From assembly GCF_003952725.1 (NCBI RefSeq), contig NZ_CP032509.1, positions 2,504,001 to 2,568,000 of the forward strand: a stretch of 64,000 bases of DNA, in the 5' to 3' direction. The notes under the pieces are model-generated. The model did not search any database. It worked only from the letters and a program-made list of their open reading frames with translations, and was not told the origin of the DNA. This DNA is from Georhizobium profundi (GTDB lineage Bacteria; Pseudomonadota; Alphaproteobacteria; Rhizobiales; Rhizobiaceae). A program made the position numbers and the translations under genes. The number at the start of each line of letters is the position of its first letter. The stretch's first letter is position 1. Below are positions 6,554 to 24,393 of the stretch, in pieces.

Positions 6554-7141
6554 TTAGCCGCGGCTTTCCGGAGTACTCGCTAAGGTAAGGGATAGATCGT
6601 TCCAGACGTCTTGTCGGCGGATGCGTTCTGCCTCAACCTCGAAGCGATCGATGAAGCGGGCTCCCTCAAAAGGGCTGCCGTCGAGGCGTTCGCCGTTCAG
6701 CGTCCCGGTAACGAAGACGGTCGTGACGGTGCCGCGATAGCTCTCGTCGACGGTCTCGATCGTCTTGCGCACAAAGCGGTAGCGCGGTGCCGCAAATGTG
6801 ACGAGCTCTTCGAGCTTCGTCAACGCGGTGCCATGGCTGGGGCCTGGAAAAACCATCTTGAAATCCGGATGGAGATGGCGGCGTGCGGCTTCGAGATCGC
6901 GGTCTTCCATGAGACGAAGAAAGTGAAGGACGATGTCGCTTGCCGGGCGCAATGCTTCACCTGGCGTTCTGGGCACTCGGCCGCGCATGTAGTTCGTTGC
7001 GTCGACCTCATCGAACGCCACGGTGACTGCATCCAGCGGCGCCTTGAGCGTGGCGGCGACGGCATCCGTCAGCCGCTCGGCGAGCCTGACCCGTACCTCT
7101 TCCGAATACCCCCGTATCAGCGTCGTGCGAACAATCGGCAT
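6554..7141 (-). CDS. Tautomerase / NTF2-like (SnoaL) fusion protein
   Basis: A 195-residue two-domain protein. Residues 1-62 look like a 4-oxalocrotonate tautomerase subunit: Met is followed directly by Pro (the catalytic Pro-1 after processing), then a beta-alpha-beta unit with VRLAERLTDAVAATLKAP. Residues about 75-190 look like an NTF2/SnoaL fold (DIVLHFLRLMEDRDLEAARR, then a beta-rich tail ending IRRQDVWNDLSL). Tautomerases of this type move keto-enol double bonds in unsaturated dicarboxylates; SnoaL-like domains are cyclases or isomerases, or binding modules. It is transcribed divergently from the GntR regulator and shares its control region, so it probably belongs to the same pathway. 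Confidence 0.7.
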   Translation of the reverse strand: MPIVRTTLIRGYSEEVRVRLAERLTDAVAATLKAPLDAVTVAFDEVDATNYMRGRVPRTPGEALRPASDIVLHFLRLMEDRDLEAARRHLHPDFKMVFPGPSHGTALTKLEELVTFAAPRYRFVRKTIETVDESYRGTVTTVFVTGTLNGERLDGSPFEGARFIDRFEVEAERIRRQDVWNDLSLTLASTPESRG

Positions 7142-7180
7142 GAAAATCGGCTCCCGACGAAATTTTGATGCTTGTCATAA

Positions 7181-7198
7181 TGATATATTGTTATATCA
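7181..7198. promoter_or_regulatory. Palindromic operator candidate for the GntR regulator
   Basis: TGATATA and TATATCA form a perfect 7-bp inverted repeat separated by TTGT, in the 89-base gap between the divergent tautomerase fusion and the GntR gene. The site is AT-rich in a GC-rich setting and has the size of HutC-type operators. That position would allow one regulator to control both transcripts. The assignment is inferred from symmetry and location. Confidence 0.5.
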
Positions 7199-7230
7199 AT
7201 AGTCAACGACAGCAGCTTGGATGTTTTTCG

Positions 7231-8112
7231 GTGGTCAGTCGCACAGAGATCGATGAGGCACATGGGCGGAAGCCGGCGACAGCGTCGTCCCGCCGCTCGC
7301 GCATCGATCCGGCCTCGCGTGTGCCGCTTTACCACCAGATCCTGGTCATCCTGCGCAATCAGATCTTTTCCGGCGAACTGCAGCTTGGGGCTGTGTTGCC
7401 TGGAGAGCAGGAGCTGGCCGAGCTCTTCAATGTCTCCCGGATTACCGCCAAGCGCGCTCTCAATGAACTGGCCGATGCGGGTCTGGTCGTACGCGAGCGT
7501 GGCCGTGGGACCCGCGTATCCGATACGCCGCCACCGCCTACGCTGAAGACGTCGGTCGAGGGGTGGTTCGAGAACATATCGCTGATGGGCGTTGCGACCG
7601 ACGTCGCGGTCCTGGAATTCGACTATGTGCCTGCCAGTCCCGATGTGGCGCAGGCGCTGTCAATTCCGGCGGGAACGACCGTGCAGCGGACGGTGCGCGT
7701 GCGCTATCTCGACGGCGAGCCGATGTCGCACCTCCTGACATTCGTTCCCGAGGATATCGGGCGCTCGTTTGATCGCGACGAGATGGGAAATTTCGCGCTG
7801 CTCACGCTTCTGGAGCGCTCTGGCGTGAAGGTGGCGGATGCGCGCCAGACGGTGTCAGCTGCGCTGGCCGAGCCTGATATCGCAAGCGCGCTTTCGATCC
7901 ATGCCGGATCAGCGCTCATCGATGTCAAGCGTGTGGTGCGAGACACGCGCGCCCGGCCAGTCGAATACATCCGCGTGCTTTACCGGCCCGACAAGTATCA
8001 GTTCGAAATGAACCTGAAGCGCGTTCACAAGCGCGAAGGCATGCATTGGCAGTCGGAGACGCCGAACATGCCGCCCGAGATCGCCCCAAACAATAAAAAC
8101 AACCGGGGCTGA
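7231..8112 (+). CDS. GntR/HutC family transcriptional regulator
   Basis: A regulator of about 293 residues if it starts at GTG 7231. An N-terminal winged helix (about residues 28-95) carries SRVPLYHQILVILRNQIFSG, the recognition helix region NVSRITAKRALNELADAGLV and wing GRGT. A UTRA effector-binding domain follows (about 115-270), as in HutC. The longer frame from ATG 7165 would pass through the palindrome at 7181-7198, which argues against it, but no strong Shine-Dalgarno sequence decides between them. It is the first gene of the island operon, 33 bases before the binding-protein gene, and is probably a repressor released by the pathway substrate. Confidence 0.8.
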   Translation: MVSRTEIDEAHGRKPATASSRRSRIDPASRVPLYHQILVILRNQIFSGELQLGAVLPGEQELAELFNVSRITAKRALNELADAGLVVRERGRGTRVSDTPPPPTLKTSVEGWFENISLMGVATDVAVLEFDYVPASPDVAQALSIPAGTTVQRTVRVRYLDGEPMSHLLTFVPEDIGRSFDRDEMGNFALLTLLERSGVKVADARQTVSAALAEPDIASALSIHAGSALIDVKRVVRDTRARPVEYIRVLYRPDKYQFEMNLKRVHKREGMHWQSETPNMPPEIAPNNKNNRG

Positions 8113-8145
8113 AGAGAAGCAAACCTGCCAGAGAGGACAACAACC

Positions 8146-9387
8146 ATGACCAAGAAGACACCATTCAGCATCAAGCGCCGCACCTTCATTGCGGGATCAG
8201 GCGCAGCGGCCCTTGCCGCCGGCGTAACGGGGTTTCCGGCCGTGCTGCGCGCGCAGGCACCTGATCCGGTCCGCATCGGCCTCGTGCACCCCGTTACCGG
8301 GTTCATTGCCTTTTCGGGCACCCAATGCCGCGCTGGCGCCGAACTGGCCATCGCCGATATCAATGCGGCCGGTGGCATTCAGTCGCTCGGCGGCGCGCAG
8401 CTCGAAGCGATGCTGGCCGACAGCCAGGGCCGGCCGGAACTTGGCGCATCGGAGACCGCGCGCCTGATCGAAGGCGGCGCAGTCGGCATCGTCGCCGGCT
8501 TTTCCTCTGCCATTTCGCTGGCCACCACGCAGGAAGCCGCCAAGACAAACACGCCGCATGTGGTGGATGTCGGCGTCGCCGACGACATCGTCAATCGCGG
8601 CCTGACGAACACCTTCCGCTTCGCGCCCGGCTACGGCGCCGTGGCGCAGTCGGCCGTCGCCCGCCTGGATGAGATCAACAAGGCGGCGAACAGCCCTGCG
8701 AAGACGGCTGTCATCATCCACGAAGAATCGCTCTTCGGCACCGGTACCGCCAATCTGATGACTGAAGAACTGCCGAAGATCGGCATCGAAGTCCTGTCCG
8801 TCATCCGGCACGCGAACCCGACGCGCGACTTCACCAACATTGCGCTCCAGCTGCGTTCGCTGCAGCCCGATCTCATCATCCCGGCGAACTACTACAACGA
8901 ATACGTGCTCCTCGCGCGTACGCTTCGCCAACAGCGCATCGAGGCCAAGGGCATCTATTCGGTTCTGGGCGGCGCAGCCTCCAACGTGCAGTTCGTCCAG
9001 GAATTCCCGGAAGCTGCTGAGTTCATCATGGATTGCAACCACTGGTACGATCCGAACTCGGAAGTAGCGCTGCAGCGCCGTGCAGCTGCCGAGGCCAAGA
9101 ACCTTTTCTACACCTACGAAGTGTTCTGCGCCTACAACGCAGTCGCCTTCCTGGCGGACGCGATCGAGCGTGCTGGCTCGACTGAGAAGGAAGCGGTCAT
9201 CGAGGCGCTGAACGGTTCGACCTGGGACAATCACGGCATGCCCTATGGCCCGACGGAGATCGTTAACGGCCAGAACCAGGGCGCGCAGGCGGTGAACACG
9301 CAGGTGCAGAGCGGCAGGATCGAGGTCGTTCTGCCAGCCGAGTTCGCTTCGGCGGAAGCGGTCTTCCCAATGCCTTCGGCTGGCTAA
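8146..9387 (+). CDS. ABC importer periplasmic binding protein, LivJ/LivK type
   Basis: A 413-residue protein of the branched-chain amino acid / amide binding family (Peripla_BP_6). Residues 1-37 form an export signal with the twin-arginine-like pattern KRRTFIAGSG and a probable cleavage after RAQA. The mature part starts PVRIGLVHPVTGFIAFSGTQ, the first beta strand and ligand loop of this class, and continues through the usual two alternating lobes. It catches the solute in the periplasm for the LivHMGF-like components just downstream. Family members bind amino acids, amides, urea or aromatic acids, so the ligand cannot be read from sequence. AGAGAGGA precedes the ATG. Confidence 0.85.
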   Translation: MTKKTPFSIKRRTFIAGSGAAALAAGVTGFPAVLRAQAPDPVRIGLVHPVTGFIAFSGTQCRAGAELAIADINAAGGIQSLGGAQLEAMLADSQGRPELGASETARLIEGGAVGIVAGFSSAISLATTQEAAKTNTPHVVDVGVADDIVNRGLTNTFRFAPGYGAVAQSAVARLDEINKAANSPAKTAVIIHEESLFGTGTANLMTEELPKIGIEVLSVIRHANPTRDFTNIALQLRSLQPDLIIPANYYNEYVLLARTLRQQRIEAKGIYSVLGGAASNVQFVQEFPEAAEFIMDCNHWYDPNSEVALQRRAAAEAKNLFYTYEVFCAYNAVAFLADAIERAGSTEKEAVIEALNGSTWDNHGMPYGPTEIVNGQNQGAQAVNTQVQSGRIEVVLPAEFASAEAVFPMPSAG

Positions 9388-9469
9388 ACGCCAATTCGCC
9401 GATAGTGCGGGGCGGCAGCGCCGTCCCGCGACCATCTCCCGCTCATCCTCCACGCACTGGAAAGGTGTC

Positions 9470-10342
9470 ATGGTCGATCCGGTCATTCTCATTCCGTCGC
9501 TGATCAACGGCCTCACGACGGGCGCGCTCTACGCGCTCGTCGCGCTCGGCCTGACGCTGATCTACGGCGTTCTCCACATCATCAATTTCGCGCATGGCGC
9601 GCTTTTGATGCTGGCACTCTTCGGCGTCTTCTTCCTGAACCAGATATTCGGGATCGATCCCTACTGGGCACTCCTCATCGTGCCGCCGGCAATGTTCGTG
9701 ATCGGTTACGGCCTGCAGCGCGGCATCATCGGCAAGGCGAGCCACGGTCGTGACGAGAACATCCTTCTGGTGACGCTCGGGCTCTCGATCATCATCGAGA
9801 ACATGTCGCTCTACTTCTTCCGCTCCGACACGCGGACGGTGGACACGCCGTATTCCTTTGAGGTGGTCGAGTTCGCCGGTGCCTTCCTGCCGCTGCCGAA
9901 GGTCATCGCTTTCTTCGGTGCCCTTATCACGGCCGGCCTTCTCTGGGCCTTCATGTCCAGGACCGACCTTGGTCGAGCCATTCGTGCGCTTGCCAAGGAG
10001 CGCAAGGGCGCACGCCTCGTCGGCATCAATGTCGATCATGTCTTTGCCATGAGCTTCGGCATCGGCATCGCCTGTCTCGGCGTCGCCGCCTGCCTGCTGA
10101 TGCCGAGCTACTACGTCAACCCGCAGGTCGGTTACGGCTTCGTGCTGATCGCCTTCACGACAGTGGTGCTCGGCGGCATGGGATCCTTCGTCGGGGCCAT
10201 GATCGGTGGTCTCATCATCGGCGTCGTCGAAGCGATGGGTGGTCTCTTCCTGGGGGATAGCCTCGGCCAGTTCGGCATCTTCGCCATCTTCATCCTCATC
10301 CTTCTCTTCCGCCCCACCGGGCTTCTCGGACACAAGGCGTAA
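9470..10342 (+). CDS. ABC importer permease, LivH type
   Basis: A 290-residue polytopic inner-membrane protein with about eight hydrophobic helices. The family signature GLTLIYGVLHIINFAHGALL lies at about residues 27-46, and the coupling loop RTDLGRAIRALAKERKGARL at about 164-183 would contact the ATPases. It pairs with the LivM-like permease 6 bases downstream to form the translocation pore. The ATG follows GAAAGG. It lies in the same transcript as the binding protein, 82 bases before it. Confidence 0.88.
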   Translation: MVDPVILIPSLINGLTTGALYALVALGLTLIYGVLHIINFAHGALLMLALFGVFFLNQIFGIDPYWALLIVPPAMFVIGYGLQRGIIGKASHGRDENILLVTLGLSIIIENMSLYFFRSDTRTVDTPYSFEVVEFAGAFLPLPKVIAFFGALITAGLLWAFMSRTDLGRAIRALAKERKGARLVGINVDHVFAMSFGIGIACLGVAACLLMPSYYVNPQVGYGFVLIAFTTVVLGGMGSFVGAMIGGLIIGVVEAMGGLFLGDSLGQFGIFAIFILILLFRPTGLLGHKA

Positions 10343-10348
10343 GGCGGC

Positions 10349-11326
10349 ATGATCAATCGCAACCAACTCCTGACGCTCCTCATCGTCTTCGCTATCATCG
10401 GCACGGCGCCTTTCTGGATCGCGCGTGAATCAACGCTCAACACCGTCATCCTGATCCTCTATGTCGCGCTGCTGGGCCAAGCCTGGAACATCCTCGGTGG
10501 CTATGGCGGCCAGTTCTCCTTCGGCCATGCAGCCTTCTTCGGTACGGGCGCCTATTCCGTCGCCGTCCTGCAGCTGCAATACGGCATCAATCCCTGGATC
10601 GGGCTCTTCATCGGCGGGCTGCTCGCCATGGGCGTTGCGCTCTTCATCGGCTTTGCGAGCTTCCGTTACGGTCTACGCGGCTCCTATTTCGCGCTGGTGA
10701 CGCTCGCTTTTGCCGAGGTGCTGCGCATCCTGTCGAATTCCGTCTCGTTCACGGGGGGAGGGGTCGGCATTCTGATCCCGCTCAGCCGTGATCCGGCCAA
10801 CATGCAGTTTGCCAACAATGTCGGCTATTTCTGGCTGATCTGGGCCCTTTGCCTTGCCTGCTTCCTGACCGTGTGGTGGCTCGGACGCTCGCGCTTCGGC
10901 GCATGGCTGCAGGCCGTACGCGACAATGAAGACGCGGCACGCGCGCTCGGGGTCGATGTCTTCGCGACCAAGATGAAGGCGGCGGCCCTGTCCGGCTTCT
11001 TCTCCGGCCTCGCGGGCGTCTTCTACGCCCAGTTCTATCTCTATCTCGATCCCGCGATTGCGTATGGCTCAGCCGTGTCGATCGAATCCCTGCTGGTGCC
11101 GATCATCGGCGGCATGGGGACACTTTTCGGCCCGCTCATCGGTGCAGCCGTTACCCATCTGCTTGCGGAGACGACCCGTCACTTTGTCGGCGACGTGCCG
11201 GGGATCGCGCTCGCGATCTATGGCCTGCTGCTCATTCTCGTCGTCATGTTCCTGCCGCGCGGCCTGATCAGCATCTTCGGTCGCATCGGTGGACTGTTCG
11301 GATCGCGGAGGGCAGCCGATGCTTGA
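10349..11326 (+). CDS. ABC importer permease, LivM type
   Basis: A 325-residue inner-membrane permease with about nine hydrophobic segments. It shows the LivM signatures ALLGQAWNILGGYGGQFSFG (about residues 41-60), a Gly-rich loop SFTGGGVGILIPLSRDP and the ATPase-coupling segment GAWLQAVRDNEDAARALGV (about 181-199). It forms the membrane channel with the LivH partner. Its stop codon lies inside the first codons of the next gene (8-base overlap), so translation of permease and ATPase is probably coupled. Confidence 0.88.
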   Translation: MINRNQLLTLLIVFAIIGTAPFWIARESTLNTVILILYVALLGQAWNILGGYGGQFSFGHAAFFGTGAYSVAVLQLQYGINPWIGLFIGGLLAMGVALFIGFASFRYGLRGSYFALVTLAFAEVLRILSNSVSFTGGGVGILIPLSRDPANMQFANNVGYFWLIWALCLACFLTVWWLGRSRFGAWLQAVRDNEDAARALGVDVFATKMKAAALSGFFSGLAGVFYAQFYLYLDPAIAYGSAVSIESLLVPIIGGMGTLFGPLIGAAVTHLLAETTRHFVGDVPGIALAIYGLLLILVVMFLPRGLISIFGRIGGLFGSRRAADA

Positions 11327-12074
11327 GGTCAACGGGATCACCAAATCCTTCGGCGGGTTGAAAGCCGTCGATGGCGTGTCGCTCTCAGTCAAGCAGGGCA
11401 GCCTCGTCTCGCTCATCGGACCCAATGGCGCCGGCAAGACGACGTTCTTCGCATTGATCACCGGTTTCCATCGCCCGGACGGTGGCACGGTCCAGTTCGA
11501 TGGCAAGAACATCATGGGTGCCAAACCAAGCGATATCGCGCAGGCCGGCATGGTGCGCACATTCCAGATCGTCCAGCCTTTTGCAGGCCAGACGGTGCGT
11601 GAGAACATCGCCGTCGGCGCGCATCTGCGCCACGCGTCACGCCGGGATGCGCTGGATCGCGCTGCCGAAGTGGCTGAAAAGGTAGGGCTCGGCGACAGGC
11701 TCGATATGGATGCAGCAAGTCTCACGGTTGCTGGTCGCAAGCGGCTCGAAGTCGCTCGTGCGCTCGCAACAGATCCAAAGCTCGTTCTTTTCGACGAAGT
11801 CCTTGCCGGTCTCAATCCGAGCGAGATCCGCGACGTCATCCCCGTCATTCGGGCGGTGCGCGACAGCGGCGTGACCATCTTGCTGATCGAGCACGTCATG
11901 CAGGCCGTGATGCAGCTTTCCGAATACACCTGGGTGCTTAACCAGGGACGACTGATTGCCGAGGGACCGCCGCGCGCGGTCGCGGCGGACAAGGCCGTCA
12001 TCGAAGCCTATCTCGGCCCAGGCATGGCCGCGCGGCTCAGCGCCCAGGCAAAGAAGGAGCCGGCTCATGCCTGA
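11319..12074 (+). CDS. ABC importer ATPase, LivG type
   Basis: A 251-residue ATPase. Walker A is GPNGAGKTT (about residues 36-44) and Walker B is LVLFDEVLAGL (about 153-163). The signature region reads LTVAGRKRLEVARALA, the variant usual in the LivG branch in place of LSGGQ, and IEHVMQAV is the H-loop. The start is ATG 11319, with GGAGGG upstream, rather than the longer frame from 11289. It overlaps the LivM-like stop by 8 bases and the next ATPase by 8 bases. It energises import of the unknown solute. Confidence 0.88.
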   Translation: MLEVNGITKSFGGLKAVDGVSLSVKQGSLVSLIGPNGAGKTTFFALITGFHRPDGGTVQFDGKNIMGAKPSDIAQAGMVRTFQIVQPFAGQTVRENIAVGAHLRHASRRDALDRAAEVAEKVGLGDRLDMDAASLTVAGRKRLEVARALATDPKLVLFDEVLAGLNPSEIRDVIPVIRAVRDSGVTILLIEHVMQAVMQLSEYTWVLNQGRLIAEGPPRAVAADKAVIEAYLGPGMAARLSAQAKKEPAHA

Positions 12075-12822
12075 CGCTGCAATCGTTGAACGGCCGTTGC
12101 CAACGGCCTCGACCGAGACTGTTCTCAGCGTCAAAGGGCTTCGAGCCGGCTATGGCGCAGTAGAGGTCCTACGCGGCATCGATATCGAGATCCGCAAAGG
12201 GCAGATCGTCGCGCTGCTCGGGTCGAACGGTGTGGGCAAGACGACATTCAATGCCGTTGTGTCGGGTCTGATCAAACCCTGGTCCGGCGACGTCGTCTTC
12301 AAGGGAAGCAAACTCCCCGGCGGACGGGCGGAGGCTGCAGTGGATGCAGGGCTCAGCCTTGTGCCGGAAGGGCGCTTGATCTTCCCGAACATGACGGTCC
12401 ACGAGAACCTCGTGCTTGGCAGCTATCGCCGGGGACGCGCCAATCGTGACGCCAATATCGACAAGGTGGTCGGCGTCTTCCCGCGGCTCAAGGAGCGTTT
12501 TTCCCAAAAAGCAGGCACGCTTTCGGGTGGCGAACAACAGATGCTGGCGATCGGCCGAGGCATGATGGCGGAGCCGAGATTGCTCATCCTCGACGAACCG
12601 TCTCTTGGACTGTCTCCGCTTCTGGTCGAGGAGATGTTCAATCTCATCAAGCGCCTGAACGAAGAGGGTCTGACAATCCTGCTCGTGGAGCAGAACGTCG
12701 TTCAGTCGCTTGAAATCGCGGATCATGGATTCGTGCTCGAGAATGGCGCGATCAGCCTTTCCGGATCGGCCCAAGAACTGATGGACGATCCCGACCTCCA
12801 GCGGTCCTATCTGGGAATCTGA
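12067..12822 (+). CDS. ABC importer ATPase, LivF type
   Basis: A 251-residue ATPase with Walker A GSNGVGKTT, signature TLSGGEQQMLAIGRGMM, Walker B LLILDEPSLGLSPLL and a LVEQNV H-loop, all as in LivF. An N-terminal extension of about 17 residues (PDAAIVERPLPTASTE) precedes the first beta strand. The start ATG 12067 is internal to the end of the LivG-like gene. With LivG it makes the heterodimeric motor of the importer. The aconitase-like gene follows after 3 bases, tying the transporter to the catabolic enzymes. Confidence 0.88.
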   Translation: MPDAAIVERPLPTASTETVLSVKGLRAGYGAVEVLRGIDIEIRKGQIVALLGSNGVGKTTFNAVVSGLIKPWSGDVVFKGSKLPGGRAEAAVDAGLSLVPEGRLIFPNMTVHENLVLGSYRRGRANRDANIDKVVGVFPRLKERFSQKAGTLSGGEQQMLAIGRGMMAEPRLLILDEPSLGLSPLLVEEMFNLIKRLNEEGLTILLVEQNVVQSLEIADHGFVLENGAISLSGSAQELMDDPDLQRSYLGI

Positions 12823-12825
12823 GAG

Positions 12826-14091
12826 ATGCCTCAAAGTCTTGCACAGAAGATCATTGCGCGTGCATCCGGACGCAGCCATGTCGAAGTGGGCGATGTGGTG
12901 ACGGCTCGGGTCGATCTCGCCATGATCCACGATTCCGGCGGGCCGCGCCGGGTCGAGCCGATCCTCAAGCGTCTTGGTGTCGGCCTTTATGACAAGGACA
13001 AGGTTGTCCTCGTCTCCGACCATTACGTGCCTGGCGACACGGAAGAGGGCGCTGCAATCCTGCAACTGACCCGCCGCTGGGCAGCCGAGAAGGGCGTGAC
13101 CTTCTATGATGGCGAAGGCATTTGCCACGTCGTGCTACCTGAGAGAGGGCATCTGAAGCCTGGAATGTTCGTCGTCGGCGGTGACAGCCACTCGCCGACC
13201 GGTGGCGCCTTCGGTGCCTACATGTTCGGTATCGGCGCGACAGAGATGGCAGGTGTGCTGGCAACCGGCGAGATCTGGATCAAGGTGCCGGAGACGATCC
13301 GCATCGAGTGGTCCGGAACGCTCGGGCCGCGCTTGATGGCCAAGGACATGCTGCTTGCGATGTGTGGCCGGCTCGGCATGGATGGCGGACGCTATCAGGC
13401 CATCGAATATGCCGGCGAAACTGTCCGCGGGCTCGGCATGCAGGAGCGGATGACGCTCTCCAACATGGCCGCCGAACTGGGGGCCCAGGCGGGTCTGATT
13501 GCTCCTGATCAAACGACGATGGCGTGGCTAGCCGAGCATGGCGCGACCGATTTGCCCGATCCGGCGCACTGGCAACCGGATCTTGATGCGGTTCCGGACG
13601 AGCTTCACCGGTTCGATGCGGAGACACTCGTGCCCCAGGTTGCCGCGCCCCATTCTCCCGCCAATTCGGCCCCTGTCGATGAATACGAGCCGACGGACAT
13701 CGACGTCGCCTATATCGGCGCCTGTACCGGGGCGAAATACACCGACCTCAAGGCGGCCGCCGATATCCTTCGCGGGCGCACGCTTGCAAAGGGCGTCGAG
13801 CTTCTCGTCGCACCGTCGTCGAAGCGCGACCAGGATCGCGCCGCCGACGAGGGCATCATGAAAGTACTCGAAGATGCTGGGGCAAAGGTGCTGCCGAATG
13901 CCTGCGGTATCTGCGCGGGCTATGGCTCGGCGCGTCTCGGCGAGGACGTGACGTGCATCTCGACGACGGCGCGCAATTTCCGTGGCCGCATGGGCGCGAA
14001 GTCGTCGAAGGTCTATCTCGGTTCACCCTATACGGTTGCCGCTTCCGCTCTCGCCGGGCGGATCGTCGATCCGCGCGAGGTCGGGGCATGA
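12826..14091 (+). CDS. Aconitase-family hydratase large subunit (LeuC/DmdA-like)
   Basis: A 421-residue Fe-S hydro-lyase subunit of the isopropylmalate isomerase / homoaconitase / dimethylmaleate hydratase branch. Cys300 (GACTGAKYTDL) and Cys360/Cys363 (NACGICAGYG) are the three expected [4Fe-4S] ligands. The N-terminal half has the active-site strands VVLVSDHYVPGDT and VVGGDSHSPTGGAFGAYMFG. It would form a heterodimer with the small subunit encoded next (ATGA overlap) and add water to, or remove it from, an unsaturated dicarboxylate. A biosynthetic LeuC role is unlikely, because the neighbours are import and ring-opening genes and no leuA or leuB is present. The exact substrate is unknown. 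Confidence 0.8.
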   Translation: MPQSLAQKIIARASGRSHVEVGDVVTARVDLAMIHDSGGPRRVEPILKRLGVGLYDKDKVVLVSDHYVPGDTEEGAAILQLTRRWAAEKGVTFYDGEGICHVVLPERGHLKPGMFVVGGDSHSPTGGAFGAYMFGIGATEMAGVLATGEIWIKVPETIRIEWSGTLGPRLMAKDMLLAMCGRLGMDGGRYQAIEYAGETVRGLGMQERMTLSNMAAELGAQAGLIAPDQTTMAWLAEHGATDLPDPAHWQPDLDAVPDELHRFDAETLVPQVAAPHSPANSAPVDEYEPTDIDVAYIGACTGAKYTDLKAAADILRGRTLAKGVELLVAPSSKRDQDRAADEGIMKVLEDAGAKVLPNACGICAGYGSARLGEDVTCISTTARNFRGRMGAKSSKVYLGSPYTVAASALAGRIVDPREVGA

Positions 14092-14609
14092 CAATGGTTG
14101 TCCCCCGTCACCGTGCCTTCGTTTTCGGCAACGACATCGATACCGACGCCCTTGCCCCTGGCCAGTACATGGGCGGCGGTATCGAGGCGCTCGCCGCCCA
14201 TTGCCTCGAGGCTGTGGACCCTGACTTCGCATCATCCGTGCAGCCGGGCGACATCGTCGTCGCTGGCAAGAATTTCGGTATGGGCTCGTCCCGGGAACAA
14301 GCCGCGCAGGCACTCCGCCATCTTGGCGTTGGCGCAGTCGTCGCGCGATCCTTTGCAGGCATCTTCTATCGCAACGCGATCAATCTCGGTCTTCCCGTGT
14401 TCATCGCGACGGGAGACACCTCCATGCTCCGTCCCGGCGACGCGGTTGAAATCGATATCGATGGCGCGGCGCTTCTCACGCAAACCGGGCGGATCGCGCT
14501 CGAGCCGCTGCCCTATTTCCTCCTGGACATGATCGCCGATGGCGGCCTCGTTCCTCATCTCGAAAAGCGGTTCGCCGCAAGCGCCAGCCCGAAGGAGACT
14601 GCATTATGA
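14088..14609 (+). CDS. Aconitase-family hydratase small subunit (LeuD/DmdB-like)
   Basis: A 173-residue swivel domain with the expected FGNDIDTDALAPGQYM and GKNFGMGSSREQAAQAL motifs. The latter, around residues 60-76, is the conserved loop that contacts the substrate carboxylate. It completes the hydratase with the preceding large subunit. The start is ATG 14088, overlapping the large-subunit stop by 4 bases, and its own stop overlaps the next gene by 4 bases. A separate small subunit of this length is the norm for the LeuCD and DmdAB type, unlike one-chain aconitases. Confidence 0.82.
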   Translation: MTMVVPRHRAFVFGNDIDTDALAPGQYMGGGIEALAAHCLEAVDPDFASSVQPGDIVVAGKNFGMGSSREQAAQALRHLGVGAVVARSFAGIFYRNAINLGLPVFIATGDTSMLRPGDAVEIDIDGAALLTQTGRIALEPLPYFLLDMIADGGLVPHLEKRFAASASPKETAL

Positions 14610-15481
14610 CGCGCCTCAAAGCGCGCCTCGCAGAGCAGCGCATCGTCGTCGCTCCAGGCATCTATGATGGATTGTCTGCGCTCGTCGCCGAACAGTCCGG
14701 TGCCGAGGCGATCTATCTGTCGGGCGCTTCGCTCGCCTACACCCGTTTCGGCCGACCCGATATCGGGCTCGTTTCGGTCAGTGAGGTGGCCGATGCGGTC
14801 GGCGCCATCTGCGAGCGGGTTTCGCTGCCGCTGATCGTCGATGGCGACACAGGCTTCGGCAATGCACTGAATGTGCAGCGCACGGTGCGCATGTTCGAAC
14901 GCATGGGCGCTGCCGCAATCCAGATTGAGGACCAGACGATGCCCAAGCGGTGCGGGCATCTGAACGGCAAATCGCTGGTGTCCACCGGCGAGATGGTCGG
15001 CAAGATCAAGGCTGCGGCCGATGCACGTCAGGACGAGCATTTTGTCGTTATCGCGCGCACCGACGCGATCGGTGTCGATGGGTTCCAGGCTGGGCTCGAC
15101 CGCGGCGCGGCCTATGCGGAAGCGGGTGCCGATGTCGTGTTCGTGGAGGCGCCAAGGTCGGTCGACGAGATGGAGTCCATCGTGTCCACCCTTGGCTCAC
15201 GCGTTCCGCTGATGGCGAACATGGTCGAAGGCGGAAAGACGCCGACGCTGACAGCCAACGACCTGGAAGCAATCGGCTTTTCGCTCGTCATCTTCCCCGG
15301 CGGGCTGACCCGCGCGGTGGCACGCACGATGCGCGCCTATTTCGAGAGCTTGCTGGCGCACGGATCCAACGCGCCGTTCAAGCAGCACATGTACGATTTC
15401 GCCGGCATCAATGCCGTTGTCGGCACCGACGAGATGCTGGCTGCGGGTGCAGCCTATGACGAAAAGAGGTTCGAACCATGA
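14606..15481 (+). CDS. Isocitrate lyase / PEP mutase family carbon-carbon lyase
   Basis: A 291-residue TIM-barrel enzyme. VDGDTGFG (Asp79, Asp81) and IEDQ (Glu108, Asp109) give the Mg2+ site, and the mobile-loop motif PKRCGH with Cys116 is the catalytic acid found in isocitrate, methylisocitrate and dimethylmalate lyases but not in the hydrolase/mutase branches. It therefore probably splits a 2-hydroxy (substituted malate-like) acid into pyruvate or glyoxylate plus a carboxylic acid. It directly follows the hydratase genes, the same hydratase-then-lyase pairing known from dimethylmaleate degradation in nicotinate fermenters. The exact substrate is inferred only. Confidence 0.82.
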   Translation: MTRLKARLAEQRIVVAPGIYDGLSALVAEQSGAEAIYLSGASLAYTRFGRPDIGLVSVSEVADAVGAICERVSLPLIVDGDTGFGNALNVQRTVRMFERMGAAAIQIEDQTMPKRCGHLNGKSLVSTGEMVGKIKAAADARQDEHFVVIARTDAIGVDGFQAGLDRGAAYAEAGADVVFVEAPRSVDEMESIVSTLGSRVPLMANMVEGGKTPTLTANDLEAIGFSLVIFPGGLTRAVARTMRAYFESLLAHGSNAPFKQHMYDFAGINAVVGTDEMLAAGAAYDEKRFEP

Positions 15482-17169
15482 TCGATCCCGTTCTTCTCGC
15501 CATCCTCAAGGGACGGCTTGAACAGATCGCAGACGAGATGGATGCGACGCTGTTCCGCTCTGCGTTCAACCCCATCATCGCCGAGGCCCACGATGCTTCG
15601 CACGGCATCTATGATGCGGTCACCGGAGACACTCTGGTCCAGGGTAAGTCCGGGCTGCCGATCTTCGTCGGTGTCATGGCCTTTGCGGTCAAGGCGGTCA
15701 TCGAGAAGGCAGCAAAATCCGGTGGCCCGAAGGACGGCGACGTCTGGATCTTCAACGACCCCTATGCCGGCGGCACGCATTTGTCCGATTTCAGGTTGGT
15801 GCGTCCCTTGTTCCGCGATGGCAAGGTATTCTGCTACCTCGCCTCGGTCGGCCATTGGCACGATGTCGGCGGAAACGTGCCCGGCAACTACAATCCGGTC
15901 GCGACGGAAAGCTTCCAGGAGGGGATGCTCATCCCGCCGGTCAAGCTCTACGACAGGGGCGAACTGCGCCAGGACGTCATCGATATCCTGTCGTCGAATT
16001 CACGCCTGCCCAACTCGCTCTTCGGCGATCTCAACGGCCAGATCAACGCGCTCGCGCTCGGCGTCAAGCGCATGGAGGAGCTTCTTGCCGACTATGGCGA
16101 CGGCACAGTCGAGGCGGCGCTCGGCGAACTGAAGGCGCGCGCGGCCCAACTCATGCGGGCAGAGATCAAGGCACTTCCGCAGGGCACCGTCTCGGCTGAG
16201 GATTTTCTCGATAATGACGGCATTGTCGACGAACCACTGCGCATCGCGCTCGATCTCAAGATCGAAGGCGAGCGCATGGTGATGGATTTCTCCCGCTCGT
16301 CTCCAGCCTGCGCCGGCCCCGTCAACATCTCGCGCGCCACCACCATTGCCGCCTGCTATGTGGCGCTCAAGCACATCTTCGGCGACGTGCCCGCCAATGC
16401 GGGCGTGCTCGAGCCGGTCGAGTTCGTGATCCCCGAAGACAGCCTGCTTTCGGTGCGCGCGCCGAAGCCGGTTGGCGGTTATACCGAAACGATCCTGCGC
16501 CTGATCGACGTGGTCTTCCAGGCAATTGCGACGATTGCGCCTGAGCGGTCCAATGGCTGCGCCTATGGCACGATCAACGCATTGTCGCTCGCCGGCTATC
16601 GCGGTCCCGACAAGAAGCGCTGGGTCATGTTCTCCTTCTTCGGCGGCGGCCATGGTGGTCACCCGGAAGGTGATGGGTTGAACCACGGCAACGCGCCGAT
16701 TTCGACAGCGACGATCCCGCCGCTCGAGATCCTCGAAGCGGCCTATCCGATCATGTTCACGCAATGGGGGCTGCGCCAAGATTCCGGCGGAGCCGGCAAG
16801 AGCCGCGGCGGACTGGGCGCCGTTTACGAGCTGGAGCTGCTGGAGGAAGAGGCTGACGTTTTCCTCTTCGGTGAGCGCGGTCGCTTTGCGCCGAAAGGCG
16901 TCGTCGGCGGCGGCGATGCGGCGCTCAATCGCTTCAGCTACGAGCAGACCGATGGCGAGAAGACCCCGCCCATGGCGTCCAAGATGGTCGGCATCAAGCT
17001 GAAGCGCGGCCAGAAGGTCAGGCTCGAGACGCCGGGCGGCGGCGGTTACGGCGATCCGGCGGAGCGCGATCGGGCAGCCATCGAACGTGACGTGGCACTC
17101 GGTTTCGTCAGCGAGGAAGCGGCCGAACGCGATTACGGTTTCCAGTCGAACAAGAAGGACGCGGCCTGA
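15478..17169 (+). CDS. Hydantoinase B / oxoprolinase B-type subunit
   Basis: A 563-residue HyuB-family protein. It begins MIDPVLLAILKGRLEQIADE and has the family blocks AFNPIIAEAHDASHGIYDAV and DVWIFNDPYAGGTHLSDFRL (about residues 86-105), plus a Gly-rich C-terminal region GHGGHPEGDGLNHGNAP and ETPGGGGYGDPAERD. With HyuA it forms an ATP-dependent amidohydrolase: relatives open hydantoins, N-methylhydantoin, 5-oxoproline or caprolactam, and more distant ones carboxylate ketones. Here the B gene precedes A, the reverse of the commoner order. It overlaps the lyase gene by 4 bases. Confidence 0.85.
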   Translation: MIDPVLLAILKGRLEQIADEMDATLFRSAFNPIIAEAHDASHGIYDAVTGDTLVQGKSGLPIFVGVMAFAVKAVIEKAAKSGGPKDGDVWIFNDPYAGGTHLSDFRLVRPLFRDGKVFCYLASVGHWHDVGGNVPGNYNPVATESFQEGMLIPPVKLYDRGELRQDVIDILSSNSRLPNSLFGDLNGQINALALGVKRMEELLADYGDGTVEAALGELKARAAQLMRAEIKALPQGTVSAEDFLDNDGIVDEPLRIALDLKIEGERMVMDFSRSSPACAGPVNISRATTIAACYVALKHIFGDVPANAGVLEPVEFVIPEDSLLSVRAPKPVGGYTETILRLIDVVFQAIATIAPERSNGCAYGTINALSLAGYRGPDKKRWVMFSFFGGGHGGHPEGDGLNHGNAPISTATIPPLEILEAAYPIMFTQWGLRQDSGGAGKSRGGLGAVYELELLEEEADVFLFGERGRFAPKGVVGGGDAALNRFSYEQTDGEKTPPMASKMVGIKLKRGQKVRLETPGGGGYGDPAERDRAAIERDVALGFVSEEAAERDYGFQSNKKDAA

Positions 17170-19232
17170 TGGGTGGCATGAGTTCGAAGCGCTACGTGAT
17201 CGGCGTCGATGTCGGCGGTACCTTCACCGATATTTTCGTTTACGACCAGATTGCGCACACCGTGCAGACGACGAAGATTCCGTCGACGCGTGGCGACCAG
17301 TCGCGCGGTTTCGCCGAAGGCATCGCGCGCATCGTGCCGGACTTCTCCGAAATCGCGACCGTCGTTCACGGCACCACTGTCGGCACCAACGCGCTTCTGG
17401 AACGTAAGGGTGCGCGCACGGGCATCATCACCACGCGCGGCTTCCGCGACATCCTCGAGATGCGCCGCCGCGATCGTCCGACGACCTGGGGCTTGTGGGG
17501 CCGGTACCAGCCCGTCATCAGCCGCGAGGACCGCGTCGAGGTTTCCGAGCGCGTGCTCGCGGACGGAACCGTGCGCGAGGCGGTCAACGACGATGAAGTC
17601 CGCCAGCAGGCCGAGGCGCTGAAGGCCGCTGGCTGCGAAGCCGTCTGCGTCTTCTTCGTCAACGGCTATGCCAATGACGCCAACGAGCGCCAGGCTGTCG
17701 AGACCGTGCGCGCCGTCTGGCCCAACGGATACGTCACGGCGGCGACTGAGATCGTGCCGGAAATCCGCGAATTCGAGCGGCTCTCGACCGCTGCGCTCAA
17801 CGCCTATCTGCAGCCGGTGGTGTCGTCCTATCTCGATCGACTCGAGAAGACGCTGAAGGAGCGTGGCTTTGCCGGCGACATTCTGATCGTGCAGTCGAAT
17901 GGCGGTGTGATGGCGATCGATACCGCCAAGCGCTTCCCCGTGCGCACCGCGCTCTCCGGCCCTGCCGCCGGCGTCATGGCCGCGCAGGCGATCGCGCAGG
18001 CGGCAGGCTTTGCCAATGTGATCACCTGCGACATGGGCGGCACCTCCTTCGACGTGTCGCTTGTGGCGGCTGGCGAAAGCGCGTTGTCGGCGCAGACGTC
18101 GATCGACTTCGGGCTCGTCGTGCGCACGCCGATGATCGAAATCTCCACCATTGGTGCCGGCGGCGGGTCGATCGCCGGCATCGACAATGGCGGCATTCTG
18201 CAGGTCGGGCCGGAATCGGCGGGCTCCGATCCCGGACCGGTGTGCTACGGGCTCGGTAACGACCGCCCAACGGTGACGGATGCTAACGTCGTGCTCGGGC
18301 GCATCAATGCCGAGCGTCCGATCGGCGGCAAGCTCGCGCGCCTCGACGTCGATGCGGCGCGCCATGCGATCGCCACCCACGTCGCCGACCCGCTCGGGAT
18401 CACCGTCGAAGATGCGGCGGAGGCGATCCTGAAGATCGCGAACGCCAAGATGGCCGGTGCGATCCGATTGGTCTCGATCGAACGTGGCCATGACCCAGCC
18501 GAGTTTTCCGCCATGCCCTTCGGCGGCGGTGGTTCGCTGCACACAGGCGCGCTCATCAAAGAAGTGGGGCTCAAATCCGCGCTCGTCCCGCGCTTCCCCG
18601 GCGTCACATCCGCACTTGGATGCGTGGTCGCCGACATGCGCCATGACCGTGTGCAGACCGTGAACCGCCTGCTCGACGGCCTCGACGCAGGTGCCTTGGG
18701 CGAAGAGATGGTGCGCGTTGCCGATGAGACGGCCTTGCTTCTCGATCAGGCGGGCGTCGCTTTCGAACGCGTGGACCGGATCTACGAGCTCGACATGCTC
18801 TATCTCGGCCAGACGCATACGGTTTCGGTGCCGCTCGACATTCCCGTCGCCGGTCTGACTGGAGACGGCGTGCGAACTGCCTTCGAAGACGCGTACCGGA
18901 CAACCTTCGGACGTCTGCTCGACGGTATCCCGATGCGCGTCATGAACTACCGCGTCGCCGTCATCGGCCGCAGGCCGGCCTTCGACATGGGGGCCTTCGC
19001 GCCGGTGACGGACCGGACTGCAGAACAATGTCGCACCGGATCGAGGCGCATCTATGCCGACGGCGCCTGGCATGATGCCGTGCTTTATGACCGTCATGCG
19101 TTGCCCGTCGGCGCGCGAGTCGAAGGCCCGGCGATCCTCGAACAGGCGGACACCACGATCTTCATCGATCCGGGGCTCAAGGGCACCGTCGATGCGTTCG
19201 GCAATGTCGTCATCGACAGGATGGCGGGCTGA
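17169..19232 (+). CDS. Hydantoinase A / oxoprolinase A-type subunit
   Basis: A 687-residue HyuA-family ATPase. The actin-like phosphate loop VDVGGTFTDIFVYD lies at about residues 13-26. VHGTTVGTNALLERKGARTG is the HyuA N-terminal block, and CDMGGTSFDVSLVAAGE and STIGAGGGSIA are second nucleotide-binding and active-site regions. It phosphorylates and activates the ring carbonyl while the B subunit completes hydrolysis. The start overlaps the HyuB stop by one base (TGATG); an ATG three codons downstream (17178) is also possible. Lengths and motifs are normal, so it should be active. The substrate class (lactam, imide, hydantoin) is not decided by sequence. Confidence 0.85.
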   Translation: MGGMSSKRYVIGVDVGGTFTDIFVYDQIAHTVQTTKIPSTRGDQSRGFAEGIARIVPDFSEIATVVHGTTVGTNALLERKGARTGIITTRGFRDILEMRRRDRPTTWGLWGRYQPVISREDRVEVSERVLADGTVREAVNDDEVRQQAEALKAAGCEAVCVFFVNGYANDANERQAVETVRAVWPNGYVTAATEIVPEIREFERLSTAALNAYLQPVVSSYLDRLEKTLKERGFAGDILIVQSNGGVMAIDTAKRFPVRTALSGPAAGVMAAQAIAQAAGFANVITCDMGGTSFDVSLVAAGESALSAQTSIDFGLVVRTPMIEISTIGAGGGSIAGIDNGGILQVGPESAGSDPGPVCYGLGNDRPTVTDANVVLGRINAERPIGGKLARLDVDAARHAIATHVADPLGITVEDAAEAILKIANAKMAGAIRLVSIERGHDPAEFSAMPFGGGGSLHTGALIKEVGLKSALVPRFPGVTSALGCVVADMRHDRVQTVNRLLDGLDAGALGEEMVRVADETALLLDQAGVAFERVDRIYELDMLYLGQTHTVSVPLDIPVAGLTGDGVRTAFEDAYRTTFGRLLDGIPMRVMNYRVAVIGRRPAFDMGAFAPVTDRTAEQCRTGSRRIYADGAWHDAVLYDRHALPVGARVEGPAILEQADTTIFIDPGLKGTVDAFGNVVIDRMAG

Positions 19233-19235
19233 GCC

Positions 19236-19850
19236 ATGGCTGGAGGCTCTGTTGATTTGGCGCGAACAGCGCTTCTGATCGTCGATCTCCAGAATGACTT
19301 CGTTCATCCCGATGGCGCCTATGGGCGCGCTGGGCAGACGGCGGAGATGATCGCGGCACTGCCCGGACGTCTTCGGCCGCTGGCCGAGGCGCTTCGGGGT
19401 CGCGGCGGCTTTGTCGTCTCGACGCAGTTTACGCTCGTGCCGGGTCGCGGCGGTGAGCCCATGATCTCGCCGCACCTGAAGGAACTGCGCCCGTTCCTTG
19501 CAAAAGGGGATTTCGAGCCGGGCAGCTGGGGACATCGTCTCGTCGATACGCTCCAGCCCGCTGACTTCGTCGTTGAGAAGGTCGCCTATTCGGCGTTCTT
19601 CCAGTCGCGGATGGAGTTCGTGCTGAAGAAGGCCGGGATCGACACGCTCTTCGTCTGCGGCATCGTGACCAATGGCGGCGTGGCGTCGACGGTCCGGGAC
19701 GCGCATGTTCGCGACTTCCGCACCTTCGTTTTGTCCGACGGCTGCGGGGCCTTCTCGCAGGCGACCCATGACAACGCCATCCGCGATCTCTCGACCGTCA
19801 CCAAGGCAATCACGGTCGCAGACGCTCTGGCGATGGTGACCGGCGCATGA
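19236..19850 (+). CDS. Isochorismatase-fold hydrolase lacking the usual Cys nucleophile
   Basis: A 204-residue protein of the isochorismatase/cysteine-hydrolase superfamily. Asp17 (LIVDLQNDF) and Lys115 (VEKVAYSAF) occupy the expected catalytic positions. In the block that normally reads TN-x-C-V, however, the sequence is GIVTNGGVASTVRDA, so the nucleophilic cysteine is Gly148. True isochorismatases (EntB, PhzD) also have Gly there and cleave a vinyl ether without a covalent intermediate, whereas nicotinamidase- or maleamate-type amidases need Cys. A simple amidase role is therefore doubtful. It lies 3 bases after hyuA and overlaps the flavoprotein gene by 4 bases. Confidence 0.8.
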   Translation: MAGGSVDLARTALLIVDLQNDFVHPDGAYGRAGQTAEMIAALPGRLRPLAEALRGRGGFVVSTQFTLVPGRGGEPMISPHLKELRPFLAKGDFEPGSWGHRLVDTLQPADFVVEKVAYSAFFQSRMEFVLKKAGIDTLFVCGIVTNGGVASTVRDAHVRDFRTFVLSDGCGAFSQATHDNAIRDLSTVTKAITVADALAMVTGA

Positions 19851-21259
19851 GCGCTATCCTGCCGGCAGCCGAGCTGCGAGCGGACGCCGCGATCGATGTG
19901 GCTGTCATCGGCGCTGGCGCCTGCGGCTTGGTGGCCGCCATGCGCGCAGCCGAAGCAGGCGCGGACGTGCTGGTGCTTGAGCGCGACGCCAAGCCCAGCG
20001 GATCGACCTCCATGTCCTCGGGCTTCATCCCGGCACCGGCAACGCGCTTCCAGCGCGCCATCGGGATTGACGACGACACGCCCGATCGCTTCGCGGCCGA
20101 CATTCAGTCCAAGACGAAGAACCGAGCCGACGCCGGCCTTGTCGAGACGGTTTCAAGCGCGATCGGTCCGGCGCTGGAATGGCTGGGCGACAGCCACGGC
20201 CTCGAATGGATCGTGCTCGACGACTTCCTTTATCCCGGGCACTCTCGCCACCGCATGCATACGGTACCGGAAAAGACGGGCGCCGCGCTGCTCCAGCGGC
20301 TCGCAACGGCCGCTGACGGCGCGGGCGTCATGGTCGCAAGCGGGGCGCATGTCATCGGGCTCTTTATCGAGGGCGATCGCATTTGCGGGCTCCGCATCGC
20401 GCGAGCCGACGGTCAGGAAGAGCACCTTGCATGCAATGCTCTGGTGCTCGCATGCAATGGCTTTGGCGGCAACGCCGAGATGGTGGCGCGCCATATCCCC
20501 GAAATGCGAGGGGCTCCTTATTACGGACACACTGGCAATCAGGGCGATGCGGTGCTCTGGGGGCAGGCGTTGGGCGCAGACATTCGAGATCTCTCCGGCT
20601 ATCAGGGCCACGGCTCGCTCGCTTACCCGCATCAGATCCTGATTTCCTGGGCGCTGATGATGGAGGGCGGAGTTCAGGTCAACGCAGAGGGCCGCCGCTT
20701 CTCCAACGAGCATGGGGGCTACTCGGAGCAGGCCGTCCACGTGCGCGCACAGCCGGGCGCTATGGCCTGGAACATCTACGACCAGCGCATCCATAACTTC
20801 GCGCAATCCTTCCCGGATTATCGCGATGCGATGGAGGCCGGTGCAATCCGGCAGGCGGCAGATATTACGGGTCTGGCACGCGTGATCGGCGTCGAAGCCG
20901 GCGCACTTTCGGATACATTCGAAGCCGTAGCCGCCTTTCAAGACGGGACAGCCGATGACACCCACGGCCGAGATTTTTCGACCAAGCCGGCGCTGGAAGC
21001 CCCTTATTTTGCGGTGAAGGTCACCGGCGCGCTTTTCCATACGCAAGGCGGATTGATGGTCGATTCCTCAGCCCGCGTGCTTTCGGTTTCAGGCATGCCA
21101 TTCGCCAATCTGTTCGCCGGCGGTGGAGCCGCCTGTGGCGTATCCGGTCCCGAGGTGTCCGGTTACCTCTCCGGCAACGGCCTCTTGACCGCCGTCGCCC
21201 TCGGCTACATCGCCGGCCGCGGCGCGGCGCAGGTGGCGCTGCCGCAGTCGAGCTCGTGA
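19847..21259 (+). CDS. FAD-dependent oxidoreductase, fumarate reductase flavoprotein type
   Basis: A 470-residue flavoprotein. The FAD-binding Rossmann motif DVAVIGAGACGLVAAMRAAE (about residues 17-36) continues to an acidic strand end VLVLERD. SGSTSMSSGFIPAP is the dehydrogenase-family active-site loop, and GALFHTQGGLMVDSSARVL near the C-terminus is typical of fumarate reductase / tricarballylate / ketosteroid dehydrogenases. It probably inserts or reduces a double bond next to a carboxylate in the pathway intermediate. It is cytoplasmic, with no export signal. It is the last gene of the island operon, joined to the preceding gene by an ATGA overlap. Confidence 0.82.
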   Translation: MSAILPAAELRADAAIDVAVIGAGACGLVAAMRAAEAGADVLVLERDAKPSGSTSMSSGFIPAPATRFQRAIGIDDDTPDRFAADIQSKTKNRADAGLVETVSSAIGPALEWLGDSHGLEWIVLDDFLYPGHSRHRMHTVPEKTGAALLQRLATAADGAGVMVASGAHVIGLFIEGDRICGLRIARADGQEEHLACNALVLACNGFGGNAEMVARHIPEMRGAPYYGHTGNQGDAVLWGQALGADIRDLSGYQGHGSLAYPHQILISWALMMEGGVQVNAEGRRFSNEHGGYSEQAVHVRAQPGAMAWNIYDQRIHNFAQSFPDYRDAMEAGAIRQAADITGLARVIGVEAGALSDTFEAVAAFQDGTADDTHGRDFSTKPALEAPYFAVKVTGALFHTQGGLMVDSSARVLSVSGMPFANLFAGGGAACGVSGPEVSGYLSGNGLLTAVALGYIAGRGAAQVALPQSSS

Positions 21260-22915: not shown

Positions 22916-24091
<1,176 letters not shown>

Positions 24092-24136
24092 TTGCAACGA
24101 TGACGATGCCGAAAGCTGCCGACGGCCATCAGGTTG

Positions 24137-24162
24137 CTGGAACGCGCGCAAGCGCGTTCCAG
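24137..24162 (+). terminator. Perfect hairpin after the first tuf gene
   Basis: CTGGAACGCGC and its exact complement GCGCGTTCCAG flank a GCAA tetraloop, 45 bases after the tuf stop. The stem is strong enough to stop or pause RNA polymerase or to protect the mRNA 3' end, but there is no T-run, so intrinsic termination is uncertain. Confidence 0.45.
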
Positions 24163-24165
24163 GGC

Positions 24166-24317: not shown

Positions 24318-24393
<76 letters not shown>

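Follow-up and report, generated by a model that had tools for sequence, protein, structure and literature searches.

What compound does the operon at positions 6554 to 21259 of this stretch of the Georhizobium profundi genome degrade? The window, which is the whole stretch of 64,000 nucleotides analysed here (contig NZ_CP032509.1 of assembly GCF_003952725.1, positions 2,504,001 to 2,568,000), contains a gene set that encodes an importer, a regulator, the two subunits of an ATP-dependent lactamase (HyuA and HyuB), a two-subunit hydratase, a C-C lyase, an isochorismatase-fold protein and a flavoprotein. We propose with moderate confidence that this operon degrades an N-heterocyclic carboxylic acid, namely a lactam or an imide that bears a carboxyethyl side chain once opened, and that glutarate is formed. 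New here are the coupling to glutaryl-CoA dehydrogenase (GCDH), which points to glutarate, the replacement of Cys by Gly in the isochorismatase-fold protein, and the alternative enzymes that occupy the hydratase and ring-opening slots. We found no published description of this gene combination in the open-access literature, which does not cover subscription papers. If the proposal is correct, the operon represents a widespread undescribed pathway, in which a lyase would derive glutarate from an acid of the homoisocitrate type.

Many marine and soil bacteria keep the genes of the operon linked, which confirms that they form one functional unit. We scanned genomes with the hydratase large subunit and examined the best 80 of 191 confirmed relatives as loci. 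The hydratase genes leuC and leuD, the lyase gene, hyuB, hyuA and the isochorismatase-fold gene occurred together in 64 of these 80 loci; among the other 16, 11 were cut by contig ends and five were apparently true variants (L061, L064, L065, L068 and L079). Genomes drawn separately showed the same linkage in the surroundings of the isochorismatase-fold gene. In 157 distinct loci that carry this gene (deduplicated by the end of its protein, and some of them cut by contig ends), we found the lyase in 152, hyuA in 154 and hyuB in 150; 125 loci have the flavoprotein and 138 a hydratase of any type. A separate set of 113 loci, which includes genomes duplicated between collections and in which counts depend on the visible flank, contained the lyase in all 113 and hyuA and hyuB in 111; 88 loci have the flavoprotein, 76 the LIV importer and eight a TRAP binding protein. 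To judge gene content we compared the loci by BLAST with named reference proteins, since picking the longest open reading frame (ORF) made spurious ORFs in GC-rich loci; for the same reason, the gene starts given for relatives are not trustworthy. In this search of other genomes, which the first-pass annotation had proposed, the importer, HyuAB, hydratase and lyase genes thus proved linked, far from being unlinked in all relatives. The isochorismatase-fold protein forms a sharp clade, with at least 55% identity in eight of 398 genomes of a phylum sample (including that of the window) and next matches of at most 37%. hyuA adjoins its gene in 35 of 36 short clade loci, the remaining one being cut off, and in none of 19 relatives at 31–37% identity. 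Of 397 genomes in the window's order, 49 carry this marker, as do 51 of 295 in one further family that was sampled at one genome per genus. A family sample of five genomes around genome G021 recovered only the same two loci.

The isochorismatase-fold gene (19236..19850, plus strand) encodes a member of the Isochorismatase family that retains Asp17 and Lys115. The position of the catalytic Cys of the amidases is Gly148 in the window and Gly in 211 of 211 alignment rows; in the same column, RutB has Cys and Escherichia coli EntB has Gly. The protein has the isochorismatase fold, with BiuH and RutB as its nearest folds, and lacks the catalytic Cys of the GxxTxxCV motif of the cysteine hydrolases RutB, BiuH, NicF and nicotinamidase. 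Compared with E. coli EntB it shows the pattern of the isochorismatases proper, with Gly at the Cys position and the Asp and Lys kept (PhzD lay outside the alignment). It also differs from NicF, the maleamate amidohydrolase in the nic pathway of bacteria, which is a Cys hydrolase. We rejected an ordinary cysteine amidase because the catalytic Cys is absent; the sequence speaks against the first-pass annotation if it took the protein for one. The step appears chemically unusual, as a conserved enzyme would have to work without the nucleophile of its family.

Ring opening is the predicted role of HyuB (15478..17169, plus strand; PF02538, 556 bits), the metal subunit, and HyuA (17169..19232, plus strand; PF01968, PF05378 and PF19278), the ATP subunit. 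Read by eye, HyuA contains the ATP motifs DVGGTFTD, DMGGT and GSDPGP of ATP-dependent lactamases and hydantoinases. PMC8453981 gives the ATP motifs of the two-subunit lactamase as DxGGTxTD, DxGGT and GxxPGP. The Asp-His-Asp-His motifs of the metal site in HyuB (EAHDASHG, THLSD and GHWHD) were also recognised by eye, not by alignment to CapB. The caprolactamase CapAB of Pseudomonas jessenii (PMC8453981) is likewise a two-subunit ATP-dependent lactam hydrolase with these ATP and metal motifs in common. However, although CapA is the best NCBIfam relative of HyuA, the scores of 526 and 310 bits fall far below the equivalog cut-off of the CapA and CapB models (1000 bits), and the gene context differs. 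Two more Hydantoinase_B matches occur in the window's genome (G000:C1:1759899-1761434 and 3656889-3658424), both in open frames of about 1245 aa, the size of fused oxoprolinase-like proteins.

The ring-opening slot is occupied by other enzymes in some relatives. Loci L064 and L068 have no hyuAB and instead carry a FAD_binding_3 monooxygenase (f24) nearby, whose relatives include PnpA (210 bits) and the pyridine enzyme HspB (186 bits). In L081, on plasmid p1 of Burkholderia plantarii, and L061, an 11 kb stretch from Burkholderiales that is cut on one side, hyuAB and the Cys-less protein were not seen. Both hold instead a PuuE/cyclic-imidase-like pair of the polysaccharide-deacetylase family, with 1z7a and PuuE allantoinase as best solved relatives, together with a Cys-type isochorismatase-fold protein and homologues of LeuCD and the lyase. 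The flavoprotein (51% identity) is present in L081 as well, whose counterpart L061 has an f24-like monooxygenase and a PrpD-type gene. Of the two imidase-like proteins of B. plantarii, the one that was scanned scored 142 bits with the PuuE model, against a cut-off of 425, so it appears only PuuE/cyclic-imidase-like and the locus is no proof of imide chemistry. Cyclic imidases related to PuuE are described in PMC9304392, as is the Aspergillus nidulans HxnM/HxnN route, in which a PuuE-related imidase opens a cyclic imide before amide hydrolysis. That fungal route ends at 2-hydroxyglutarate, and the window has the ATP-dependent HyuAB in place of such an imidase. The exchange in L081 and L061 is a hint, though no proof, that a cyclic imide or amide is what HyuAB opens.

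The hydratase is made of a large subunit of the aconitase/homoaconitate hydratase family (12826..14091, plus strand; PF00330) and a small subunit of the LeuD/DmdB family (14088..14609, plus strand; PF00694). The large subunit scored 432 bits with NCBIfam hacA_fam (cut-off 386) and missed the methanogen HacA equivalog (379 of 550), and the small subunit scored 177 bits with TIGR02087 (LEUD_arch; cut-off 109). Separate large and small subunits, both above subfamily cut-offs, are as in enzymes of the homoaconitase and isopropylmalate isomerase type. Homoaconitase has a basic residue in the specificity loop of the small subunit. This loop reads YMGG in the window and more commonly YM(K/R)x in relatives, with K, R or H in 55 of the 73 listed relatives (86 aligned). 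The hydratase slot is interchangeable among three enzyme types: the 113 loci contained the window-type LeuCD (84), a longer LeuCD (16), MmgE/PrpD (16), or two types together.

The lyase (14606..15481, plus strand; PF13714) belongs to the phosphoenolpyruvate (PEP)-mutase/isocitrate-lyase family and is PrpB-like; it scored 300 bits with TIGR02317 prpB, below the equivalog cut-off of 354. The catalytic Cys motif of this superfamily is K(K/R)CGH; it reads KRCGH in the window, and its Cys, Gly and His columns were conserved in at least 95% of 90 rows. Among solved structures, the lyase matched 4iqd, labelled carboxyvinyl-carboxyphosphonate phosphorylmutase, at 195 bits, methylisocitrate lyases at up to 194.5 bits and 2,3-dimethylmalate lyase at 173 bits. 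Lyase homologues also occur in reduced settings. A plasmid of Tistrella mobilis (L090, 4979-17599) carries the operon-type importer, PrpD, lyase, tautomerase and flavoprotein with two genes of the Asp/Glu-racemase superfamily; hyuAB and the isochorismatase-fold gene were not seen in this stretch, which is possibly a route for an already opened acid. On a plasmid of Roseivivax marinus (L091, 7975-12855), the lyase (62% identity) is accompanied only by a GntR gene and a tripartite tricarboxylate transporter, and it may cleave an imported acid directly.

What the lyase releases is indicated by its neighbours in some relatives. In L081, the gene set runs on into a porin, an electron-transfer flavoprotein, an acyl-CoA dehydrogenase that matches a solved GCDH with 735 bits, and a CaiB-type CoA-transferase. 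L064 has a dehydrogenase (69%) and a transferase (62%) of the L081 type amid its lyase, leuCD and isochorismatase-fold genes. The best NCBIfam model for the CoA-transferases of L081 and L064 is succinate--glutarate CoA-transferase (SugCT), at 542 and 510 bits with a cut-off of 750. Calling GCDH at a minimum of 60% identity to the gene of B. plantarii, we found it immediately after the operon, in the same orientation and either at most 12 bp away or overlapping, in six of 151 HyuAB-type loci (L013, L024, L165, L226, L268 and L280), where a rate of one such gene in roughly 4000 genes predicts about 0.08. These 151 distinct loci show 300 bp or more beyond the operon, and 146 of them show at least 900 bp; L013 (866 bp) and L268 (462 bp) show less, so that only part of GCDH lies in the stretch. 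A SugCT-like gene is also present in four of the eight GCDH loci, after GCDH in L226 and L280 and within the variant loci L064 and L081. The six HyuAB-type loci form three pairs, with hyuA 87–91% identical within pairs and 60–71% between them. There are thus three independent HyuAB-type cases, for which a crude Poisson estimate gives about 7e-5, and L064 and L081 are further cases in different contexts.

GCDH was the sole match at E 1e-60 in genomes G021 (98% complete) and G134 (78% complete). The window's genome has an adjacent pair of GCDH and SugCT-like genes elsewhere than at the operon. Within the order, 47 of 49 operon-positive genomes have GCDH compared with 246 of 348 operon-negative ones (Fisher p 2.5e-5, ignoring relatedness); the tally of 47 was read by eye, and the two genomes with no match are G183 (91% complete) and G224 (85%). 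As GCDH, in some cases with a SugCT-like gene, adjoins or lies inside the gene set, one product of the lyase is probably glutarate. The lyase substrate would then be a homoisocitrate-type 2-hydroxy acid, HOOC-C(OH)(R)-CH(COOH)-CH2CH2-COOH, and the co-product glyoxylate (R = H) or pyruvate (R = CH3). Such a substrate fits both a hydratase of the homoaconitate hydratase family and a lyase close to PrpB-type enzymes.

The flavoprotein (19847..21259, plus strand; PF00890, FAD_binding_2) resembles flavocytochrome c and aligns with the flavocytochrome c fumarate reductases (159 bits). In these, the Arg residues of TTRD and NRLGGN have catalytic and substrate-binding roles. They are replaced by Tyr292, found in 171 of 171 rows, and Tyr440, found in all 169 rows that have a residue there. 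A fumarate-reductase-type enzyme was rejected because both Arg are Tyr. The flavoprotein may desaturate the ring or the amide, and not free succinate.

Taken together, the pathway could run as follows. The compound would be taken up by the LIV-type ABC importer, or by TRAP importers in some relatives, and its ring opened by HyuAB at the expense of ATP. The Cys-less isochorismatase-fold hydrolase would act on the opened product, probably completing nitrogen release; a nucleophile on the enzyme may not be needed, since the neighbouring carboxylate of an opened substituted maleamate could serve in its place. If the compound arrives saturated, the flavoprotein would introduce a double bond. The hydratase (LeuCD-like, or MmgE/PrpD or the longer LeuCD in relatives) would form the homoisocitrate-type 2-hydroxy tricarboxylate, and the PrpB-like lyase would split it into glutarate and a 2-oxo acid, either glyoxylate or pyruvate. 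Glutarate would continue via a CoA-transferase and GCDH.

The opened substrate would be a carboxyethyl-substituted maleate or succinate, for which hematinic acid is the best-fitting candidate. Hematinic acid, 3-(2-carboxyethyl)-4-methylmaleimide, is the five-ring imide of the acid with R = CH3. It arises in the breakdown of heme, bilins and chlorophyll, and is the only common natural compound of this skeleton known to us. The operon could be the terminal route for the monopyrroles of tetrapyrroles, a specific version that we consider rather unlikely: hematinic acid and its dihydro form would be imported, the imide opened and the product converted via methyl-homoaconitate to pyruvate and glutarate. 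The Cys-less enzyme would complete the self-assisted hydrolysis of a dialkylmaleamate or its anhydride, and dihydrohematinic acid as a substrate would require the dehydrogenase. No tetrapyrrole genes were among the families identified in the neighbourhoods, where no search aimed at them was made, and searches of the open-access literature for maleimide, hematinic acid, methylethylmaleimide and homoisocitrate lyase gave no lead. A link to hematinic acid could bear on how microbes finally use the one-ring remains of heme and chlorophyll.

Several observations weigh against a route from a carboxyethyl-bearing lactam or imide to glutarate. The GCDH coupling is seen in only six of the 151 loci, which are three pairs of close relatives, and the CoA-transferase matches fall short of the curated cut-off. 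In L254, the operon is directly followed by two acyl-CoA dehydrogenases that are only 24–25% identical to GCDH, and more distant acyl-CoA dehydrogenases lie near the operon in L157, L007, L022 and L031. The LeuD loop of the window itself has Gly and not a basic residue, and a hydratase was not seen nearby in six of the 113 loci. The Arg-to-Tyr changes of the flavoprotein disfavour a plain succinate-type dehydrogenase, the proposed Cys-less hydrolysis is guesswork, and an imide substrate alone does not explain the monooxygenase that replaces HyuAB in L064 and L068.

Other endings and other substrates have to be considered. The first-pass annotation had the operon import, open, hydrate and cleave its substrate, with an ending like that of nicotinate fermentation, and the linked unit fits the former. 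In such an ending, a small alkyl-substituted maleate would pass through enzymes of the DmdAB and dimethylmalate lyase type to pyruvate and propionate. As in the nicotinate fermentation of Eubacterium barkeri, a LeuD/DmdB-type hydratase is followed by a PEP-mutase-family lyase: the small subunit matches the LeuD/DmdB family model, and the lyase retains KRCGH and matches the solved 2,3-dimethylmalate lyase. However, 4iqd and several methylisocitrate lyases score higher, and the GCDH and SugCT-like genes beside or inside the gene set indicate glutarate, which makes this ending unlikely. The predicted substrate and product also differ from those of E. barkeri, and opening is by HyuAB. Glutarate would still be formed from a pyridine-derived lactam or glutarimide, such as a reduced hydroxypyridine dicarboxylate or pyridylacetate. 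The f24 monooxygenase in L064 and L068, and its relative with HyuAB in L265, speak for a pyridine origin, as do the genes of the Asp/Glu-racemase superfamily close by in some loci; we nonetheless regard it as distinctly unlikely. The chemistry that would go with it, which we find equally doubtful, is that HyuAB turns an enamide lactam into an enamine, which the Cys-less enzyme protonates and hydrolyses as isochorismatase does with a vinyl ether. Like E. coli EntB, the protein has Gly where the Cys would stand, which agrees with this.

A hydantoin or dihydropyrimidine pathway, in which HyuAB and a ureide hydrolase free an amino acid and the hydratase and lyase act on later products, is suggested by the resemblance to N-methylhydantoin breakdown, where HyuAB also acts with an isochorismatase-fold ureide hydrolase. 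The best solved relative of HyuA is named N-methylhydantoinase (434 bits), BiuH and RutB are the nearest folds of the isochorismatase-fold protein, and six of the 80 loci (best 80 of 191) have a dihydropyrimidinase-type gene close to the operon. Yet these loci are a small minority, the isochorismatase-fold protein lacks the Cys present in its nearest folds, and a PrpB-like lyase fits no obvious step, so that we judge this pathway improbable.

The proposed route to glutarate is most easily compared with two established systems. It shares with the methylcitrate cycle (PrpD, an aconitase-type hydratase and PrpB) its families and their order, from an unsaturated tricarboxylate through hydration to retro-aldol cleavage, and MmgE/PrpD is able to occupy the hydratase slot in relatives. 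Unlike that cycle, the operon has no citrate synthase among the genes identified and would be fed by ring opening, its lyase is below the PrpB cut-off, and the predicted product, glutarate, is one carbon longer than succinate. The homoaconitase of lysine and coenzyme B synthesis represents the closest hydratase family, with a homoisocitrate-type intermediate as proposed here; however, the operon appears catabolic and includes a lyase, and its large hydratase subunit missed the methanogen HacA equivalog.

The 14 genes named in the first-pass annotation lie where it had placed them in an ORF check, and Pfam and NCBIfam confirm their families. Its outline of gntR and 12 plus-strand genes with gaps of at most 82 bp, next to a divergent tautomerase fusion, therefore holds. 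The divergent gene (6554..7141, minus strand) encodes a tautomerase of the 4-OT family with an N-terminal Pro, fused to a SnoaL-like domain (PF01361 and PF12680), and a homologue with at least 28% identity is present in 42 of the 113 loci; the part in adjusting the double bond that the first-pass annotation gave to the tautomerase is putative. The importer consists of a LIV-type solute-binding protein (sbp, 8146..9387; PF13458, Peripla_BP_6), LivH-like (9470..10342) and LivM-like (10349..11326) permeases (both PF02653, BPD_transp_2), and LivG-like (11319..12074; PF00005 and PF12399) and LivF-like (12067..12822; PF00005) ATPases, all on the plus strand. Gaps of 33 bp separate gntR and sbp, 82 bp sbp and livH (the largest), and 6 bp livH and livM; livM/livG and livG/livF each overlap by 8 bp, and a 3 bp gap precedes leuC. 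From leuC onward, the genes overlap by 4, 4, 4 and 1 bp; the next two are 3 bp apart, and the final pair overlaps by 4 bp. Three starts were corrected from the sequence: livG to about 11319, livF to 12067 (an ATG that overlaps the livG stop) and leuD to 14088 (an ATGA overlap with leuC).

The regulator gene gntR (plus strand; PF00392 and PF07702) encodes a GntR/UTRA protein of the HutC type. Its ORF opens at 7165, and between the tautomerase gene and gntR we read an AT-rich palindrome, TGATATATTGTTATATCA (7181..7198), that is likely the GntR operator. As this palindrome lies between the two candidate starts, GTG at 7231 is likelier than TTG at 7165, which would place the gene at 7231..8112. 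A similar palindrome (near AATGGTATAATGACATACCATT) accompanies about half of 47 gntR genes of relatives; 10 gave none, and the remainder look different.

Further genes accompany the operon in some relatives. In L265, a FAD_binding_3 monooxygenase (63% identity to f24) and an AMDase-like gene lie beside an intact HyuAB operon, and an AMDase-like gene also occurs in L159. L008 (536-8354), L024 (518-8262) and L037 (3049-8329) flank the HyuAB operon with a D-hydantoinase/dihydropyrimidinase above the NF009941 cut-off, a carbon-nitrogen hydrolase, a gene of the Asp/Glu/hydantoin-racemase family, MmgE/PrpD and a second lyase of about 45% identity; L008 and L024 additionally carry a PuuE-like pair. 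Eight loci (L036, L042, L046, L049, L050, L058, L069 and L075) combine a TRAP importer with a GMC oxidoreductase, some of them with SDR, AMDase-like (EutA-like) or carboxymuconolactone-decarboxylase-family genes, which suggests a hydroxylated relative of the substrate. Vitamin B6 breakdown was considered for the GMC oxidoreductase, SDR, class II aldolase and FAD monooxygenase genes of the variants and set aside: the SDR reached only 181 bits for pyridoxal 4-dehydrogenase (cut-off 325) and has better models, and the GMC gene is choline-dehydrogenase-like, also below the cut-off of that model. Downstream of the operon in the window lie the genes for EF-Tu, 1.7 kb past the operon end, and then tRNA-Trp (22916-24393).

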